The notes beneath the pieces were generated by a model that had not been told where the DNA came from, made no database searches, and was given only the letters and a program-made list of their open reading frames with translations. The position numbers were made by a program, and so were the translations under genes. Below, in pieces: positions 1 to 6,506 of a stretch of 6,506 nucleotides of DNA. The stretch spans positions 1-6,506 of the forward strand of contig JAGUYV010000005.1 of NCBI GenBank assembly GCA_020061125.1, written 5' to 3'. Position 1 is the stretch's first letter. Each line of letters begins with the position of its first letter. The stretch comes from a bacterium (GTDB lineage: Bacteria > UBP15 > UBA6099 > DSWB01).

Positions 1-3000
1 GCCGCGCCTGGCTGCGCGGCGATTCCGAAATTGGCGCGCGCCATGCCGCCGGGCTTGAGAATCACGAACTGCGCCACCGGGGTTGTGGCGCGCGCGCCAG
101 CGGGCATGGTGTTCATGTCCAGCTTGATCGTGCGGCGGCCCGTGGACGGCAGGCCTGGCCGTGCGCCCGGAACCGAATACAAACCGCGTTCGTCCGTGAT
201 CACATAAGTTCCATCATCAAGAATCAGCCCGGCTCCGGACACGCCGGGTTCGTGCTTGTCGTGGCGGCCGTTGCCGTTTTGATCCACGAACACGCGGCCG
301 ATGAGTGTGGCCTGATCGAAGAGGGGATCCTCGACCACCTGCACCGCGGCCTGTGCGGTGTTGGACAGAGCCACGAGGTTGATCATGGCTATGGCTGTGT
401 TGAGCAGGGTCATGCCCGGCCTGGCGGAAGTGTCCACCACAGCCTGGAAATGGACCGTGGCGCTGTCCCCGCCCGCGCCCGCGGCCTGAAGCGCGCCGAT
501 TGTGAAATCCACCACGCCCGCGCCCTGTTCGGCTGCGGTCACGGCCGTTCCCGTGGACAGCACCGCCGACCCGGGCACAAAGGCCATGCCTGGCGGCAGG
601 GTGTCCCGGATCACCACGGGATTGTTGGGATCGGTCTGCGAAGAGCCGGTGTTGCGCACCGTCAGCGTGTAGGTCACAATATCGCCCGCCGCGGCCGTGT
701 CCCGGTTGGCAACCTTGGTCACGGTGAGCGGGGTTTGCTGGCCGTGGCGGTACAGGGGCACGCGCATGCCGATGGGCTGGTTCTGCAGGTCCACGCGGAA
801 CACCTGCCCTGTGTACGGCTCCTGAATGCCGGCCCAGGACGCGGCGGATCGGGCCACGGGCAGATATGTGTTGGCCAGGGCCGGGTTGGTGTCGAATGTC
901 ACCGTAATGTAATAAAAGCCGGGAGTGATGTCGCTGCCGCCGCTGCTGCCGATGAACTCGAAGCCGCCCGCGATGCCGGATGCGCCGCTCAACTGCGGGT
1001 TGGTCTGCGTCACGGAGGGCATCTGCGTGAACACCGCGAACGGCCCGGCCACGAGCGCGCCGCTATCATGGAAGAACGACACATCCGCGCCCGCCACGCG
1101 CGCGCCCGTGAGCGCGTCGTAAACATAACCGGCGGGGTCCAGCACCAGCACATAGGTGCGCACGCCGCGGTTGTCCACGGGCGCGGCTTCGAGATCGGCG
1201 AGTGTAAAATCCTGTGACTGCGAATACGGATGCCCGTTCACCGGGTCGTTGATCAGAACGCGGTACGAGCTGCCGCGGTCCATGCGGCCGATGAATTCCG
1301 CGGGGATAAGCCCGCCGTCGCTGGTGGTGTAATTGTACACATTGCCCGTGAGCTGCCCGGCGGCGTCGAACTCCACGATGGCGATGCTTGTGAGCGCGAG
1401 CGCGGCCTGCTGCATCGAGCCGTCCGTGTCCGAGGTAGTCAGGTTCACATTGATCTTGAGGCCGTCGTTTGTGATGAGCGTTGTGTCCGTGACCGATGAG
1501 TTCAGCGTGCCGTCCGCCCGGATGGGATCCGTGTACGAAGTGACAAGTGAGTCGCCGAACTGCACGGCCATGGATCCATCGTTGGACACGCCCGCGGCCC
1601 CGCTCTCCACGGTGTTCAACTGCCCGCGGAAGATCCCTGTGTCCGGCCCGGTTTCCACCAGCGTGCGAAGCTCGAATTCGCCCGTGCGCGGATTGGTCAC
1701 CAGAACCTGTATGGTGTCAACGCGCGTGGAATCCCGGTAGGATTCCGGATCCGAAACTTCAAGGAACACGGGGTTGCCGAACACCACGCGCTCGCTGGCG
1801 CCCACGGCGGCGTCCGCGCCCAGGCTTGTGATCACGAAGGTGTTGCTGCTTGTGGCGGTGTGCCCGAGGCCGTCGTCCGCGGTCACGGTCACGACATTTG
1901 TTCCGCGTGGGAAGGTAATGCCGGGAAATGTGTAATCCCCGTTGCCGTCCGCGATCGTGGATAGCGTGGCGCCGGTTATCGGATGCGTCATGGTCACGGT
2001 CGCGCCCGGCGTGGTCTCCCCGGTCACATCGTGCACCGTGTTCTGGTGGACGCTGTTGTGCTCGGGGTTGGTGATGTTCAGCGTGATGTTGGGATCGTAA
2101 AACAGGTTGTGCGTGTGGGACACGGACACGCCGTTGGGATCCGTGGACACCATGGTGAAAGAGTTTGCGCCCGCGGCCAGATTCACGGCGGCGAAGCAGA
2201 ACTGCCCGTTCGCGTCCGCGGTCTGCGTGTACACGGCCGCAGTCACGGGGTCGGTCATGGACACGGTTGCGCCGGGCGCCGTGGCGCCGCACACCTGCAG
2301 CGGGCTGGTGTTCACAACACTGTTGTTGGGCGGCAGGGACAGCAGAATGGTGTTGGTTGTGACCACGGTAATCGAGGATGCGGCCGCGGCGGTGTTGCCC
2401 TGCGGGTCCGTCGAGGTTGTGCTGATGGCGTGCGTGCCGTCCGGGAAGAACACATCTTCGAAAACATAGGCGCCGGCCGCGTCCGCGACGGCGGTGTACA
2501 CCGCGCCCGTGACCGGATGCGAGAATGTGACGGTGCTCAATGGGTCCGTCGTGCCCTGGATATCAATATAGGAAACAGTGAATGTGCCGCTGGTAGTGAT
2601 GACATTTGTGTTGGCCGTGTCAATGGTGAAGGACACCGTGGCCGAAGCCGTGTTCCCGGCGTCGTCGGTGGCGTTCACAGTCACAGTGTTCAACCCGGAC
2701 GGGAACGGGAACGAGCCGAACGAGTATGCGCCCGCGGCGTTGGCCGTTGTGGTGAGCAGCGCGCCGGTGTTCGGGTGAATCATTGTGAGCACAGCCAGGG
2801 GATCGGTGTTCCCTGACACAGTGTGGTCCGCCGTGGAATACACCGCGCCGTGGGTGATGCTTGTAATATTGAGCGCGATGTCCGGATCCACGAAAATATT
2901 CGCCGAAACCGTTGCCGTGTTGCCCGCGGGATCCGTGGATGTCACGGTGATGGTGTTCGCGCCGGTGTTGAACCCGACGCCGGGGAAAGTGTAATTGCCC

Positions 3001-4907
3001 GCGGCGTCCGCGGTCACTGTGAGCGTGTTCCCGGTGGCGGGTTCCACCAGGGTGACTGTGGAATTGGGATCGGTTACTCCCGAGATGTCCGCTGCCGTTG
3101 TGTTGATTGTGCTTCCGCTTCCCGGATTGGTGGCGGTCACGGAATTGGAATTATCAATACGCACCGTGGCCACGGCAGACGCGATGTTGCCGCTCGGGTC
3201 CGTGGAGGTCACTGTGTAAGTGGTGGAACCCGGGGGGAACGCGACGGCCGGGAAGGTGTAGATGCCGCCGGCCGTGGCCGTGGCCGTGAGAGGCAGGCCG
3301 GAAACCGGGTGCGTCATGGTTACCGTGCTGTAGGGATCCGTGGTCCCGGTGACATCGTGCGTGGCGGTGGTGTAGTCGCCGATGGGAGATGTGATGGTGA
3401 TGCTGTTCGCGTCGTCGAGAACCGTGGTGTCGGCCGTAAGCGTGCGGGGCAGGCCCGTGTTGTCGGCGGTTTCATTATAGGTTGCGCGGAGGACATCGTC
3501 CTTGAGCACGGTCATGGCGCCGCTGTTGTTGGCGCCCGCGGCCGCGCCCGGAACCGTGGCGAGTGTTGCCGTGAACACGCCGGTGTTCGCGCCGGTCTCG
3601 GTGAGGGTCACGGTTTCGAGTTCGTTGGTGCGCTGGTTGCGCACGGTGACGGTCATGGTTTCGACGGCGGCCGCGTTCACATTCAAATCCGCATCGGTCA
3701 CCGTGATGGTTACGGCCGCGCCCGGAGCAATGGACGCCGTTGTCGTTATGGCGCCTGGGTTGGCGGGGTCCACGGTCGTGGGCGTCACAAGCACCACGGA
3801 CACGGCGTCTGTCTGATTGGACACGGAACTGAAGAAATTGAAGGGATAGAGGGTGCCGGTTCCATCGCCGGGATCCTCCGGCACCTGGCCTCCGGCAATG
3901 GTCGCGCCCGTGTTCAGAACGATGGAATTTCCCAGGTCGGCCAGAACCGGAGTTACGGGCACGCGCACCACCATGAAATCCGTGCTGCCCGCGGCGGGCG
4001 GCGTGTTCAGCGCGCCGTCCTGAAGTATGCCCACATCCCATGAAAGATTTCCGGCCGCGTCCATGGAGGCCGCGCCCAGGGACGGGTTCGTGACAATCGC
4101 GCTTCCGGCCGCGAATTTGTCCGTGACCGAGACATCGTACACCGGCCCGCCCGTGGAAGTGAGCGTGGGATTGCTGATGTCAATACGCACGAGATAGTAA
4201 GAGGTGTGTCCGACACGCGGGGGATTGAATCCGGAATCATGGGTGAGCGATTTGCTTATGGACAACTGGCCTTCATTGAACACGATGGCCAGGTCGCTGT
4301 AATCTATGCTGCTTTTCCAGGCGGTGCCGCCGGGGTCTTCGTCCACCTGGAGCCAGAAATATTCTGTCTGGCCCGGGCCTAGGCCGGTGGGAGTGAGGGA
4401 GATGCGCTTGGCGCCCCAGATGTTGTTGTTGCCCTGCACGCGCCCGAGGTTCACGGCCGCGGGATTTGCCGCCATGGTGAACCCCGCGCCAGTTGCGCCC
4501 GCGTATGGCACGGTGTCCCAGAACATGATGTCGTGTTCGCTGCTGCTCGGGTAATCCACATCCCAGATTACGGCGAACAGTTCCGCGGCCAGCACGGTGG
4601 TGAACACCTCGTCCGAATCAATGGCGATGGTCCCGTCGCTGGGAGTGGCCAGATCCCAGTGGTGCCACCACTCGATGGGATTCACCGCGTCGGCCCTGTC
4701 TATGTACTTGTTGAAATCGGAAACCAGCCCGTCGTTCGCGCTGTTGTTGCTTGCGCCATCGGACAGATTGTTGATGTTGATTTGAACGGATCCGCGGCGG
4801 TCAATGTAAATCTCCGCGGCGCGCGCACTCACGCATGCCGCCAGAACCATGAGAACGCAAAGAGCGAACGCCACGGCCCGGCCCCGGCGGTCTGCGCGCA
4901 TGCGCAT
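1..4907 (-). CDS. Giant exported modular surface protein with DUF11 and Ig-like repeats (3' end cut by window)
   Basis: The frame is open for 1635 codons from ATG 4907 and leaves the window at position 1 without a stop. The start is chosen because it is followed at once by an Arg-rich n-region, a hydrophobic core (about residues 11-24) and a possible signal peptidase I site after ARA (28-30). LAAC at 22-25 also fits a lipobox. A weak AGG lies 12 bases upstream, and ATG 4901 is an in-frame alternative. Visible order: unique N-terminal domain rich in Asn, Asp and Trp (about 32-212); DUF11-like domain (about 213-340); linker module (368-479); six Ig-like repeats (503-1028); second linker copy (1038-1128); a carboxypeptidase-regulatory-like segment (about 1245-1350); DUF11 (about 1392-1522); SdrD-B-like segment (about 1534-1631) with an EF-hand-type loop (D1542, N1544, N1546, D1550, E1553). 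Such domains usually build cell-surface or secreted stalks, so an adhesin or envelope role is inferred. The gene diverges from the pilus locus. No enzymatic motif was seen, and the C-terminal anchor lies outside the window. Confidence 0.93.
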   Translation of the reverse strand, partial: MRMRADRRGRAVAFALCVLMVLAACVSARAAEIYIDRRGSVQININNLSDGASNNSANDGLVSDFNKYIDRADAVNPIEWWHHWDLATPSDGTIAIDSDEVFTTVLAAELFAVIWDVDYPSSSEHDIMFWDTVPYAGATGAGFTMAANPAAVNLGRVQGNNNIWGAKRISLTPTGLGPGQTEYFWLQVDEDPGGTAWKSSIDYSDLAIVFNEGQLSISKSLTHDSGFNPPRVGHTSYYLVRIDISNPTLTSTGGPVYDVSVTDKFAAGSAIVTNPSLGAASMDAAGNLSWDVGILQDGALNTPPAAGSTDFMVVRVPVTPVLADLGNSIVLNTGATIAGGQVPEDPGDGTGTLYPFNFFSSVSNQTDAVSVVLVTPTTVDPANPGAITTTASIAPGAAVTITVTDADLNVNAAAVETMTVTVRNQRTNELETVTLTETGANTGVFTATLATVPGAAAGANNSGAMTVLKDDVLRATYNETADNTGLPRTLTADTTVLDDANSITITSPIGDYTTATHDVTGTTDPYSTVTMTHPVSGLPLTATATAGGIYTFPAVAFPPGSTTYTVTSTDPSGNIASAVATVRIDNSNSVTATNPGSGSTINTTAADISGVTDPNSTVTLVEPATGNTLTVTADAAGNYTFPGVGFNTGANTITVTSTDPAGNTATVSANIFVDPDIALNITSITHGAVYSTADHTVSGNTDPLAVLTMIHPNTGALLTTTANAAGAYSFGSFPFPSGLNTVTVNATDDAGNTASATVSFTIDTANTNVITTSGTFTVSYIDIQGTTDPLSTVTFSHPVTGAVYTAVADAAGAYVFEDVFFPDGTHAISTTSTDPQGNTAAAASSITVVTTNTILLSLPPNNSVVNTSPLQVCGATAPGATVSMTDPVTAAVYTQTADANGQFCFAAVNLAAGANSFTMVSTDPNGVSVSHTHNLFYDPNITLNITNPEHNSVHQNTVHDVTGETTPGATVTMTHPITGATLSTIADGNGDYTFPGITFPRGTNVVTVTADDGLGHTATSSNTFVITSLGADAAVGASERVVFGNPVFLEVSDPESYRDSTRVDTIQVLVTNPRTGEFELRTLVETGPDTGIFRGQLNTVESGAAGVSNDGSMAVQFGDSLVTSYTDPIRADGTLNSSVTDTTLITNDGLKINVNLTTSDTDGSMQQAALALTSIAIVEFDAAGQLTGNVYNYTTSDGGLIPAEFIGRMDRGSSYRVLINDPVNGHPYSQSQDFTLADLEAAPVDNRGVRTYVLVLDPAGYVYDALTGARVAGADVSFFHDSGALVAGPFAVFTQMPSVTQTNPQLSGASGIAGGFEFIGSSGGSDITPGFYYITVTFDTNPALANTYLPVARSAASWAGIQEPYTGQVFRVDLQNQPIGMRVPLYRHGQQTPLTVTKVANRDTAAAGDIVTYTLTVRNTGSSQTDPNNPVVIRDTLPPGMAFVPGSAVLSTGTAVTAAEQGAGVVDFTIGALQAAGAGGDSATVHFQAVVDTSARPGMTLLNTAIAMINLVALSNTAQAAVQVVEDPLFDQATLIGRVFVDQNGNGRHDKHEPGVSGAGLILDDGTYVITDERGLYSVPGARPGLPSTGRRTIKLDMNTMPAGARATTPVAQFVILKPGGMARANFGIAAQPGA
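1524..1796 (-). repeat. Linker module copy B, C-terminal side of the Ig array
   Basis: Residues 1038-1128. It matches copy A over about 60 residues: V-x-V-x-N-x-R-T-G-E, then L-V-E-T-G-P-D-T-G-I-F, then N-D-G-S-M and G-D-S-L-V-T-S-Y-T-D. By eye about one third of the aligned positions are identical. It lies directly after the sixth Ig repeat, so copies A and B bracket the array. Confidence 0.7.
1824..3401 (-). repeat. Six tandem Ig-like repeats inside the surface protein
   Basis: Residues 503-1028 are six diverged copies of 85-91 residues. They lie at 3401-3147, 3146-2880, 2879-2607, 2606-2352, 2351-2088 and 2087-1824. Each shows a G-x-T-D/T/A-P turn early, a V-T-M-x-H/D-P strand, then A-D-A-x-G-x-Y-x-F, and most end in T-V-T-x-T-D-P-x-G-N-T-A. 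This pattern is typical of bacterial Ig-like domains of the Big or glucodextranase-B-like type, which act as stacked beta-sandwich spacers. The copies differ enough that homogenisation by recent unequal crossing-over looks unlikely. Copy 5 is odd in carrying two cysteines (873 and 904) where the other copies have Thr, Ser, Val or Gln. The family name is inferred from sequence pattern only. Confidence 0.88.
3471..3806 (-). repeat. Linker module copy A, N-terminal side of the Ig array
   Basis: Residues 368-479. The core reads as a beta-rich segment with V-T-V-R-N then R-T-N-E-L-E, then L-T-E-T-G-x-N-T-G-V-F, and ends near D-D-x-L-R-A-T-Y. The same pattern returns at 1524-1796 on the other side of the Ig array. 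Segments of this type (E-T-G-x-N-T-G-x-F followed by G-D-x-L-x-x-x-Y) are common in large DUF11-containing surface proteins. Function is not known; a structural spacer is inferred. Confidence 0.7.
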
Positions 4908-5167
4908 GCATAAACAATGCCTGTTTCCGGCTATTGAGTTCACGGTTCCACCACAAGCGTCCGGCCGTGAAAAAGCCTTTCGCTTGTCTCTATATTTGTA
5001 TAATCCCGTGATTTTTTCAAATTTTGAGATTTTTTACGAACAAACAATCTAATAGAAGATCATTAAAGAATTGCCGTTCGGGCATATACCGGAAGCCGGA
5101 AGACATGATTTTGCGCCAAAATGTGACTTTCGTCATGTTTAAGGGCGCGTGATGAGGGAATAACACT
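4908..5167. promoter_or_regulatory. Divergent intergenic region with AT-rich core and several dyads
   Basis: This stretch separates the leftward surface-protein gene from the rightward pilus locus and must hold both promoters unless transcripts enter from outside. Visible structure: an AT-rich core at about 4970-5080; the octamer GATTTTTT at 5010-5017 and again at 5028-5035, with the dyad TCAAA-t-TTTGA (5017-5027) between; the heptamer CCGGAAG twice in tandem (5089-5102); and a perfect 6+3+6 dyad ATTTTG-cgc-CAAAAT (5108-5122). A minus-strand TTGAAA near 5020 is a possible -35 element, but no well-spaced -10 partner stands out. On the plus strand TTGCGC (5111-5116) lies 17 bases from CATGTT (5134-5139), a poor -10. 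No TGGCAC-N5-TTGC sigma-54 site was found. Promoter positions are therefore unresolved. Confidence 0.5.
5108..5122. promoter_or_regulatory. Candidate operator dyad upstream of riboswitch 1
   Basis: Perfect inverted repeat ATTTTG-cgc-CAAAAT, about 45 bases before the riboswitch aptamer. It overlaps the only plausible -35-like hexamer (TTGCGC, 5111-5116), so a bound dimeric regulator could control initiation. No regulator family is recognised from the motif. It could also be a chance palindrome in AT-rich DNA. Confidence 0.3.
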
Positions 5168-5288
5168 GGTGAACCCGATAAAGGCAAACCCGCCGAAAGG
5201 CGGGGACGCAAAGCCGCGGGGCTAAGGAACACTCGAAGCACAGGCAGCACAGAGTGGACTACGCCGGCCGGGCCGCCGAAGGTGAACC
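5168..5288 (+). promoter_or_regulatory. Cyclic di-GMP-I (GEMM-I) riboswitch aptamer 1
   Basis: Contains the class I c-di-GMP aptamer core in order: GGCAAACC (5183-5190), a P2 stem CCCGCC/GGCGGG closed by a GAAA tetraloop (5195-5198), GGACGCAAAG (5204-5213), the GGGCTAAGG receptor side (5219-5227), and GGGCCGCCGAAGG near the 3' end. The P3 tip is a 5-bp stem CACTC (5230-5234)/GAGTG (5252-5256). P1 can form between two copies of GGTGAACC (5168-5175 and 5281-5288) as 3 bp, a tandem G-A mismatch, and 3 bp. The family binds cyclic di-GMP and controls the gene downstream. The pilin start is 73 bases after the aptamer. The base matching G20 of the Vc2 aptamer is G and the C92 equivalent is C, as in c-di-GMP binders. 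Confidence 0.93.
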
Positions 5289-5308
5289 CCCTCGCAGGTT
5301 CCCTCACC
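5281..5308 (+). promoter_or_regulatory. Candidate expression-platform hairpin of riboswitch 1
   Basis: GGTG (5281-5284) can pair with CACC (5305-5308), and AACC (5285-5288) with GGTT (5297-5300). This gives 8 bp with a 4-base bulge and the loop CCCTCGCA. The 5' arm is the same sequence that forms the 3' strand of P1, so ligand-stabilised P1 and this hairpin exclude each other. No U-tract follows, so a classic intrinsic terminator is unlikely. Control of translation, Rho access or RNA stability are alternatives. The design recurs after riboswitch 2. Confidence 0.5.
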
Positions 5309-5360
5309 AACGGAAGTCACGGGTCGCAGCACATTTCAGCATCCGCAGGAGGTGGACCCC

Positions 5361-5546
5361 ATGTTCACACTGCTCCAGAGCCTTGGCGCGGATGAGGCTG
5401 GACAGGGAATGACCGAGTACGCTCTGATCATCGCCCTGGTAGCCGTGACGCTCATCTCTTTCCTCATCGCGTTCAGGGACAAGGTCGGATCCGCGTTCAC
5501 CACCGCGGCAGGCACCATTGACCAGGCTCAAGGCAGCACGCCATAG
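5361..5546 (+). CDS. flp: Flp/Fap-type pilin prepilin 1
   Basis: A 61-residue Flp pilin precursor, the major subunit type of Tad pili (adherence, biofilm). It has a short leader ending in Gly14, then Q-G-M-T-E-Y, with the conserved Glu-Tyr pair at +5/+6 after the expected cleavage Gly14/Gln15. A hydrophobic helix follows (about 21-38, A-L-I-I-A-L type), then a short polar tail ending in T-P. Family members are usually 50-80 residues long. ATG 5361 is preferred over the in-frame GTG 5352 because GTG sits inside the strong Shine-Dalgarno GGAGGTGG (5348-5355), which is 8 bases upstream of the ATG. The gene follows c-di-GMP riboswitch 1 and should be regulated by it. After cleavage by a prepilin peptidase, probably the product at 6320 onward, the subunit would assemble in the inner membrane. 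Confidence 0.93.
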   Translation: MFTLLQSLGADEAGQGMTEYALIIALVAVTLISFLIAFRDKVGSAFTTAAGTIDQAQGSTP

Positions 5547-5557
5547 GGCCGCAGCGG

Positions 5558-5587
5558 GTCTCGCCCGCCGGCCATGGCGGGCGAGGC
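5558..5587 (+). terminator. GC-rich stem-loop after pilin gene 1 (no U-tract)
   Basis: Arms 5558-5569 and 5576-5587 pair over 12 bp (11 Watson-Crick pairs and one G-U) around the loop GGCCAT. It begins 11 bases after the pilin stop. No T-run follows, and the Shine-Dalgarno of the next gene lies 15 bases further on. It is more likely a partial attenuator or an RNA-end stabiliser that lets pilin mRNA outnumber downstream mRNA than a full terminator. The second pilin gene has an equivalent. Confidence 0.6.
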
Positions 5588-5615
5588 ACCGCCGCCCCGC
5601 CGGGAGGTGAGAGCC

Positions 5616-5777
5616 ATGGACGAACGCCACGCCCTGTTCCTGGCGGTCCTCATCGCGGATGTTCTGGTCATCCGCAGATACGGACCCCGGGGCAAGCCCA
5701 GACGGTTCGCCAGATTCCTCGGAACCGTTGGCCGCGCCCTCGCCAGATGGTCGGACCGCCTCATCGCAGCGCCCTGA
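5616..5777 (+). CDS. Small basic single-span membrane protein, unknown
   Basis: A 53-residue product with no recognised family. Residues about 6-19 (A-L-F-L-A-V-L-I-A-D-V-L-V-I) could form one membrane segment, with an Asp inside. The rest is strongly basic (R-R-Y-G-P-R-G-K-P-R-R-F-A-R-F) and would stay in the cytoplasm, ending in a possibly amphipathic helix. The start is supported by GGAGG (5603-5607) 8 bases before ATG 5616, the same spacing as both pilin genes. Longer in-frame readings starting near 5574 lie within the stem-loop and are not preferred. Position between pilin and second riboswitch suggests a pilus-related or regulatory role, but that is inference. It occupies the slot that the prepilin peptidase gene holds after pilin 2, yet it lacks the I-P-N motif. 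Confidence 0.62.
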   Translation: MDERHALFLAVLIADVLVIRRYGPRGKPRRFARFLGTVGRALARWSDRLIAAP

Positions 5778-5805
5778 ACGGCGCAACGCGAACAAAGGTT
5801 TCAAA

Positions 5806-5845
5806 GGGATTGCCGGGCGCAATCTCTCCCCCGCAAAACGGGGGA
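5806..5845 (+). terminator. Two abutting hairpins upstream of riboswitch 2
   Basis: Hairpin one pairs GGGATTGC (5806-5813) with GCAATCTC (5819-5826), 8 bp with one G-U and loop CGGGC. Hairpin two pairs TCCCCCG (5827-5833) with CGGGGGA (5839-5845), 7 bp and loop CAAAA. No spacer separates them. An AT-rich run (about 5845-5856) follows but no U-tract, so intrinsic termination of cassette 1 is possible but not shown. A palindromic REP-like element is an alternative, which copies elsewhere in the genome would reveal. Confidence 0.5.
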
Positions 5846-5856
5846 ATGAAATAAAT

Positions 5857-5976
5857 GTCAACCCGAAACGGCAAACCCGCTGAAAGGCGGGGACGCAAAG
5901 TTACGGGGCTAAGGTTCAACTCGGAACGCACAGTTCTCACGGGCTGAACTAAGCCGGCCGGGCCGCCGAAGGTGAC
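5857..5976 (+). promoter_or_regulatory. Cyclic di-GMP-I (GEMM-I) riboswitch aptamer 2
   Basis: Second class I c-di-GMP aptamer with the same core: GGCAAACC (5870-5877), P2 stem CCCGCT/GGCGGG with GAAA loop (5882-5885), GGACGCAAAG (5891-5900), GGGCTAAGG (5906-5914) and a 3' GGGCCGCCGAAGG identical to aptamer 1. The P3 tip GTTCA (5914-5918)/TGAAC (5945-5949) replaces CACTC/GAGTG of aptamer 1 with full compensation, strong evidence for a real fold. The lower P3 can form CGGGGCT with AGCC-GG-CCG. P1 differs from aptamer 1: GTCA-A-CC (5857-5863) with GGTGAC (5971-5976). It lies 75 bases before pilin 2. The G20 and C92 equivalents are both conserved. Confidence 0.93.
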
Positions 5977-6007
5977 TGCTCCCCTCGTAGCAGCTTCCCC
6001 TTCCTCC
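5971..6007 (+). promoter_or_regulatory. Candidate expression platform of riboswitch 2
   Basis: CTGCT (5976-5980) pairs with AGCAG (5989-5993) around the loop CCCCTCGT. The flanks GAAG (5968-5971) and CTTC (5994-5997) can extend it. It overlaps the P1 3' strand by at least one base, and by five if extended, so it competes with P1. Just downstream, CCTCC (6003-6007) is a perfect complement of the pilin Shine-Dalgarno GGAGG (6039-6043) and could sequester it. No U-tract is present, which favours translational control. Confidence 0.45.
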
Positions 6008-6051
6008 AAGCCTGGCTGTGCACACTCTCAATCATCTCGGAGGTGGACATC

Positions 6052-6237
6052 ATGTTCACGACACTGCACAGCCTGTACAAAAACGAAGAGGGGCAGGGCA
6101 TGACCGAATACGCCCTCATCATCGCCCTCATCGCCGTGGGACTCATCGCCCTTCTCATCGCCTTCAAGGACAAGATCGGCGAAGTCTTCACCAACGCCCA
6201 GGGTTCCCTGGACCAGGCGCAGTCAACCACACCGTAA
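6052..6237 (+). CDS. flp: Flp/Fap-type pilin prepilin 2
   Basis: A 61-residue Flp prepilin and paralogue of the one at 5361: identical length, 41 of 61 positions identical by eye, with the block from Gly14 to Leu26 unchanged. Cleavage is expected at Gly14/Gln15, placing Glu19-Tyr20 at +5/+6. The hydrophobic helix (about 21-38) is followed by F-K-D-K-I-G and a short tail ending D-Q-A-Q-S-T-T-P. Most differences are conservative in the helix (Val/Ile, Phe/Leu, Arg/Lys) and freer in the leader (residues 9-13). ATG 6052 is preferred over GTG 6043 because GGAGG (6039-6043) is 8 bases upstream of it, exactly as in pilin 1. It follows riboswitch 2 and precedes the prepilin peptidase gene, the usual flp-cpaA order of tad loci. 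Confidence 0.94.
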   Translation: MFTTLHSLYKNEEGQGMTEYALIIALIAVGLIALLIAFKDKIGEVFTNAQGSLDQAQSTTP

Positions 6238-6254
6238 CGGGACACATGGAAGCT

Positions 6255-6285
6255 CCGCCCGCCCGGCCCCGCGCCGGGCGGGCGG
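6255..6285 (+). terminator. GC-rich stem-loop after pilin gene 2 (no U-tract)
   Basis: Perfect 13-bp stem, 6255-6267 with 6273-6285, loop CCCGC. It starts 17 bases after the pilin stop and ends 19 bases before the Shine-Dalgarno of the peptidase gene. No T-run follows. Like the hairpin after pilin 1, it probably lowers read-through or protects the pilin mRNA 3' end, which would give more pilin than peptidase. Confidence 0.62.
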
Positions 6286-6319
6286 GACTCCCGTCCTGTA
6301 TCCCAAAGGAGACTGCGCC

Positions 6320-6506
6320 ATGACCGGACACACGCTCGACATCGCCCTGCTCGCATTGCTCGCGGCCGCCGTCGCCATAGACGGCAGGAGCCGGCGCATT
6401 CCCAACGCGTTGACCCTGCCGGCCATGGGAGCGGCGCTCGCGTGGCACGCCATTCACTCGGGTGCGCAGGGATTTGTGTTTTCGCTCGGCGGCCTGGGCG
6501 CGGGCC
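6320..6506 (+). CDS. cpaA: CpaA/TadV-type A24 prepilin peptidase (3' end cut by window)
   Basis: The first 62 codons are present and open to the window end. Residues 6-20 form a hydrophobic segment leading to Asp21, then G-R-S-R-R-I-P-N-A-L-T. This is the D-x5-I-P-N-x-L-T signature of A24 aspartic prepilin peptidases, with Asp21 the likely first catalytic aspartate. The second (in a G-x-G-D motif) would lie beyond the edge. A second hydrophobic segment begins at about residue 33, and a Gly-rich S-L-G-G-L-G-A-G run ends the visible part. The enzyme is an inner-membrane protease that cleaves Flp leaders after Gly. The short N-terminus, without the cysteine zinc domain of PilD, points to the CpaA/TadV subgroup. 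AAAGGAG (6305-6311) is 8 bases before ATG 6320. It sits directly after flp 2, as usual in tad loci. Confidence 0.88.
   Translation, partial: MTGHTLDIALLALLAAAVAIDGRSRRIPNALTLPAMGAALAWHAIHSGAQGFVFSLGGLGAG

Follow-up and report, generated by a model that had tools for sequence, protein, structure and literature searches.

Tandem class I c-di-GMP riboswitch–Flp prepilin cassettes, probably acting in series and heading a Flp/Tad pilus operon

Class I c-di-GMP riboswitches (GEMM-I; RF01051), such as Vc2 and Cd1, comprise a conserved core and three helices in the 5' UTR of surface-appendage genes, with residues G20, A47 and C92 contacting the ligand in Vc2 (PMC4744006). The known riboswitches of pilus genes are ON switches, including (i) the class II riboswitch of C. 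difficile (PMC4744006) and (ii) the Geobacter pilM riboswitch, a cGAMP riboswitch (GEMM-Ib) whose terminator uses the P1 3' strand (PMC9262584). In addition, c-di-GMP-I riboswitches occur in tandem, a survey comprising 347 doublets and 12 triplets that act on a shared downstream gene, and in Desulfobacca acetoxidans seven riboswitches, grouped into three clusters with ORFs in between, lie within one 7-kb locus, their mixed ligands (AdoCbl, c-di-GMP and c-AMP-GMP) being combined in logic gates (PMC9481103).

The DNA analysed here, hereafter the window, is one whole contig (C321; 6,506 nt) of the 4.1-Mb draft genome G000, 79% complete, of an uncultured bacterium, and was compared within a set of seven genomes of its small, uncultured order, namely G000 and the six nearest genomes available for comparison. 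Its two leaders share with Vc2 and Cd1 the core, the three helices, the G20/A47/C92 residues and the position upstream of a surface-appendage gene, but display a long distal P3 and neither a recognised terminator nor clear sequestration of the Shine-Dalgarno (SD) sequence. As in Geobacter pilM, a GEMM aptamer precedes a pilus gene, whereas the window aptamers carry G20 and no terminator of the pilM kind. As in the surveyed tandems, several GEMM-I aptamers stand in series with the same predicted ligand; nevertheless, flp1 lies between them, so that each aptamer has its own gene, unlike a strict tandem riboswitch in which several aptamers serve one gene. The splitting of riboswitch units by ORFs within one locus resembles the D. 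acetoxidans arrangement, which differs in its mixed ligands. The explanation that best accounts for the whole, and which we hold to be probable, is a tandem-duplicated unit of c-di-GMP-I aptamer, leader of about 77 nt, flp gene and hairpin, heading a Flp/Tad operon with its switches in series.

On the plus strand, each aptamer is followed by its flp gene and a GC-rich hairpin, with a possible 53-aa ORF between the two units; behind the second hairpin a prepilin peptidase (A24) gene begins (6320–6506, plus strand), which is cut by the contig end and scores 25.7 bits with Peptidase_A24 against a cut-off of 26.5. Contig C445 of the same genome comprises an A24-like C-terminus, ORFs resembling TadE, CpaB, CpaC and CpaE, and a TadA that shares 71% identity with the TadA of the relative G001. 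Since G001 and G002 display the same gene order behind flp, the tad operon whose remainder sits on C445 very probably begins in the window, the A24 gene being split between the two contig ends. The flp genes thus adjoin an A24 peptidase and tad genes, the context of Flp/Tad prepilins. The 53-aa ORF between the cassettes (5616–5777, plus strand), preceded by an SD-like GGGAGGTG, gave no family match in a profile search and was not found in the tandem relative G001; its descent from a duplicated start of the A24 gene was unsupported (protein p 0.12, DNA p 0.17). Divergent from the cassettes, a minus-strand gene of 1647 codons (3–4943, cut by the contig end) encodes a protein, likely a surface adhesin, in which bacterial Ig domains occur together with DUF11 and SdrD_B repeats.

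Aptamer 1 (5173–5283, plus strand; P1 formed by A5173–G5177 with C5277–U5283) and aptamer 2 (5861–5973, plus strand; P1 formed by A5861–G5865 with C5967–U5973) score 64.8 and 70 bits, respectively, with the covariance model RF01051 (E 1.1e-12 for aptamer 2), well above its gathering score of 35, with cmscan matches spanning about 5173–5281 and 5860–5970. The two class I c-di-GMP aptamers claimed in a preliminary description of this DNA are thus recovered. G20, A47 and C92 are canonical in both (5183, 5210 and 5276 in aptamer 1), and since these contacts are kept, c-di-GMP is predicted as the ligand of both. The cGAMP subclass (GEMM-Ib) is generally recognised by A20, in line with the passages of PMC6274999 that cite G20A work; both aptamers carry G20, which argues for c-di-GMP and against cGAMP. 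Aptamer 1 also matches the c-di-GMP-I-GGC candidate variant class (RF03167) with 64.5 bits, above the gathering score of 59 bits of that model, as would be expected if it sensed another ligand. Nevertheless, the label follows from E-value ranking: the GGC-defining base, deduced from the model consensus and the family name, is a G replacing A47 (GACGCGAAG), and both window aptamers read GACGCAAAG, with the canonical A at position 47. Given that RF01051 scores aptamer 1 equally well and that RF03167 cross-matches other A47 aptamers too, the variant ligand was discarded for aptamer 1 with near certainty. The host likely makes c-di-GMP, because seven GGDEF domains are encoded in G000.

Comparison of the two aptamers discloses an identical P1 sequence, a J1/2 one base shorter in aptamer 2, and two G-U pairs in the basal P3 and one in the P2 of aptamer 2. 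The compensation formerly ascribed to P3 is borne out only in part: the distal stems are unlike in sequence yet each pair in their own register, and in the core of P2 and P3 the differences are one-sided changes from G-C to G-U. Together with leader-specific hairpins that exclude P1, these differences in distal P3, G-U pairs and J1/2 length could suggest opposite switches, or switches clearly different in threshold, by which c-di-GMP would shift pilin composition between flp1 and flp2. This proposal, also made at the outset as different c-di-GMP thresholds or opposite responses, found no support and appears unlikely: the aptamers do not differ in ligand contacts or P1 sequence, the P1-exclusive hairpins share one topology, the leaders show no expression platforms of opposed type, and tandem copies arise elsewhere through plain duplication. 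Were the two copies to respond differently, they would constitute a simple RNA device for altering filament composition.

Both flp genes encode Flp/Tad major prepilins of 61 aa, homologous to each other and 67% identical (41 of 61 residues). The product of flp2 (6052–6237, plus strand) exceeds the Pfam Flp_Fap cut-off of 32.2 with 33.4 bits, and that of flp1 (5361–5546, plus strand; SD GGAGG at 5348–5352) falls under it with 22.9 bits (E 7.5e-5). As read from the sequence, both comprise (i) a short leader, (ii) a G-X4-EY cleavage motif, within EEG/QGMTEYALIIA and EAG/QGMTEYALIIA, and (iii) a hydrophobic helix. The codon comparison (dN 0.245, dS 1.50, ratio about 0.16) indicates that both copies are retained by purifying selection and that the duplication is not recent. 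The start regions share GGAGGTGGAC-N3-ATGTTCAC, and in the window the aptamers end 77 and 78 nt before the ATG, compared to 105–144 nt in the relatives.

Cassettes 1 and 2 form a single alignment of 433 columns with 70% identity (E 2e-58), running from a GGGAAT just 5' of the aptamer to the hairpin 3' of the stop codon; because they align end to end, duplication in tandem of the whole aptamer-linker-pilin unit is well supported by the sequences. Each stop codon is followed by a GC-rich hairpin lacking a U-run, at 5554–5592 after flp1 (plus strand; −35.6 kcal/mol, z −5.2) and at 6254–6286 after flp2 (plus strand; −34.6 kcal/mol, z −4.1). The earlier picture of an old duplication of a whole cassette, comprising pilins of that identity with the same length, Shine-Dalgarno and spacing, an aptamer about 75 bases before each and a GC-rich hairpin at the same place behind each, is borne out in all these respects. 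A CRISPR-DR9 match at 5562–5586 was rejected (25.9 against a gathering score of 45), its site being the hairpin after flp1.

Upstream of aptamer 1, a putative promoter block (5122–5163, plus strand) comprises a CRP-like palindrome, TGTGA-N6-TCATG, followed by GTTT-N15-GGGAATAA. The latter motif was counted nine times across the seven genomes, and six of these copies stand immediately 5' of a GEMM-I aptamer (aptamer 1, G001 copy 1, G002, G005, G006 and the third aptamer of G000), while its reversed control was never encountered; the palindrome GTGA-N6-TCAT lies 5' of it at those six aptamers except that of G005. The block is absent 5' of aptamer 2 in both tandem genomes, G000 and G001. Since the promoter-like block stands before cassette 1 only, one promoter probably serves two switches in series on one transcript, and the two independent switches of the preliminary description, taken as two transcription units, are not sustained. 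Cassette 2 might still form a separate unit with its own promoter, and hence an independent switch, as could be suggested by the relic GGGAAT that it retains at the matching place and by the strong hairpin 3' of flp1; in the window, however, neither GTTT-N15-GGGAATAA nor a sigma-70-like site precedes aptamer 2, and the block is likewise missing before the second aptamer of G001, which makes such independence rather unlikely.

The intergenic region carrying the promoter-like block is common to the 1647-codon gene and cassette 1. In the form GTGA-N6-TCATGTTT, the CRP-like palindrome occurs at four sites in G000, including the window (5122–5163), C218:14812 and C408:4047; these precede two GEMM-I aptamers, the gene of a small secreted protein rich in Gly, Pro and Lys, where GGGAATAAC also lies 3' of the palindrome, and a flagellin-like gene, and may mark a surface-appendage regulon.

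Within the order, Flp is present in five of the seven genomes and all seven Flp genes found there are preceded by a GEMM-I aptamer, with tandem riboswitch-Flp cassettes only in two genomes, G000 and G001. The G001 pair (L035) comprises aptamers at 5450–5551 and 5965–6069 and pilins at 5698–5871 and 6178–6351, its cassettes being 65% identical to each other over 433 columns. The sharing of this arrangement by two genomes of different families would fit a tandem pair ancestral to the order, with copies orthologous across genomes and single-cassette relatives having lost one. AU tests on 183 codon-aligned columns, however, rejected both copy-wise pairings between G000 and G001, at p 0.0004 for the first copies and p 8e-5 for the second, and did not reject the pairing of pilins within each genome. 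An ancestral pair is therefore improbable; because copy-for-copy orthology is rejected, the sequences indicate that the two pairs arose separately or were homogenised, gene conversion following an old duplication being possible. It would be a speculative step further, and we think it quite improbable, to regard the serial cassettes as a c-di-GMP-graded pilin-isoform selector that sets the Flp ratio, in a format that two families of the order would have reinvented or homogenised independently.

Aptamer 2 of G001 (L035 5955–6072) keeps the core and has lost the usual P1, with TT replacing CG; in the flp2 reading frame, the aptamer region is open. The third GEMM-I aptamer of G000 (contig C324; L034 4388–4487, minus strand) is followed by a strong U-run terminator and then by a 25-codon ORF resembling a membrane peptide.

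Each window leader contains a local hairpin, a candidate switching element, that includes the P1 3' strand and hence excludes P1: (i) hairpin 1 (5276–5313, plus strand; −12.1 kcal/mol) is present in the ligand-free fold, although 29 of 200 shuffles reach or exceed its stability, which alone is weak evidence; and (ii) hairpin 2 (5968–6003, plus strand; −12.5 kcal/mol), equalled by 4 of 200 shuffles, is followed by CCTCC. Beyond the aptamer, leader 2 has the greatest excess of C over G within the right-hand region and ends in this CCTCC, complementary to the SD; the window leaders would thus allow Rho-dependent or translational control. An intrinsic terminator was rejected, no U-run terminator occurring on the plus strand in either leader or after either pilin. 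A simple translational switch by SD masking found no support, forced-aptamer folding leaving SD exposure unchanged (0.26 to 0.21 and 0.13 to 0.13).

Several relatives do display a U-run terminator between aptamer and gene. In addition, G001 copy 1, G002 and G005 carry, 31–32 nt before the ATG, a 9–10-nt complement of the aptamer 3' strand (AACUUCGGC; shuffle p 0.003 or less), an element not found in the window leaders. For the aptamer 3' strand GCCGAAGUU, a perfect or near-perfect complement is found at L035 5551–5700, L036 9267–9391 and L038 634–505 (minus strand), and in these three relatives it sits downstream of the terminator where one exists.

In the proposed mechanism, transcription, driven by an activator of the CRP/FNR type, would start just 5' of aptamer 1 and read through cassette 1 and cassette 2 into the prepilin peptidase and tad genes. 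Binding of c-di-GMP by each aptamer would lock P1, and the locked P1 would compete with the hairpin built on its 3' strand, setting expression of the flp gene directly behind; both switches would respond in series to the same ligand, most likely in the same direction. The post-pilin hairpins may protect or attenuate the mRNA, so that more pilin than machinery would be made. As to polarity, in the folding models of the relatives the aptamer-bound state favours the terminator wherever a modelled terminator changes and never clearly disfavours it, which fits OFF switches in a method that is biased by construction towards downstream hairpins and hence weak for polarity. We lean slightly towards an OFF response, in which c-di-GMP lowers flp expression, for two reasons: the hairpins would mask RNA rich in pyrimidines (rut-like and anti-SD-like) that P1 formation would free, and in several relatives the terminator can coexist with a folded aptamer. 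Against this stands the ON polarity of the known pilus-gene riboswitches of C. difficile and Geobacter.

The analysis also took in a GEMM-I survey around genome G082. GEMM-I aptamers preceding Flp/Tad genes were also found in Bacillota (L057, L065, L066, L072, L073 and L089). Tandem GEMM-I-gene cassettes occur in at least three other loci, including (i) Paraliobacillus quinghaiensis L050 (1689–2390), where each of two aptamers precedes a near-identical 37-aa ORF (MxEFxKRIxKCRIRGxHKISISSGxCVRCNYNSN), with 76% DNA identity; (ii) L154 of G041 (minus strand, 313–2512), where each of two aptamers precedes a paralogous lipoprotein gene, with 79% DNA identity; and (iii) L155 of G122 (265–8222), where each of three aptamers precedes a paralogous gene of a large secreted protein. 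These loci resemble the window in repeating an aptamer with a paralogous gene, but encode a peptide, lipoproteins and large secreted proteins, respectively, in place of pilins. The arrangement had been called unusual, which remains apt for riboswitch-Flp tandems, seen in two genomes of the order, but not for its elements, since GEMM-I aptamers before Flp/Tad genes and tandem GEMM-I-gene cassettes recur in other lineages, besides the published seven-riboswitch locus (PMC9481103). No paper on Flp/Tad pilins each with its own GEMM-I aptamer was found in the open-licence literature. The parts and the principle are already known and the Flp version in this order is new: ordinary parts in an uncommon arrangement. 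It provides a direct link, through RNA, between c-di-GMP and the subunits of Flp/Tad pili in a little-known bacterial lineage, and illustrates how riboswitch-gene cassettes can multiply as whole units to yield paralogous surface proteins, each with its own sensor.

In the Bacillaceae Tad loci L065 (5456), L066 (5373) and L073 (5397), the GEMM-I aptamer is followed by a DUF192-like ORF and then by Flp. At all three, the 3' strand of the aptamer is complementary to the terminator's 5' arm and loop, a pattern that an OFF switch would show.
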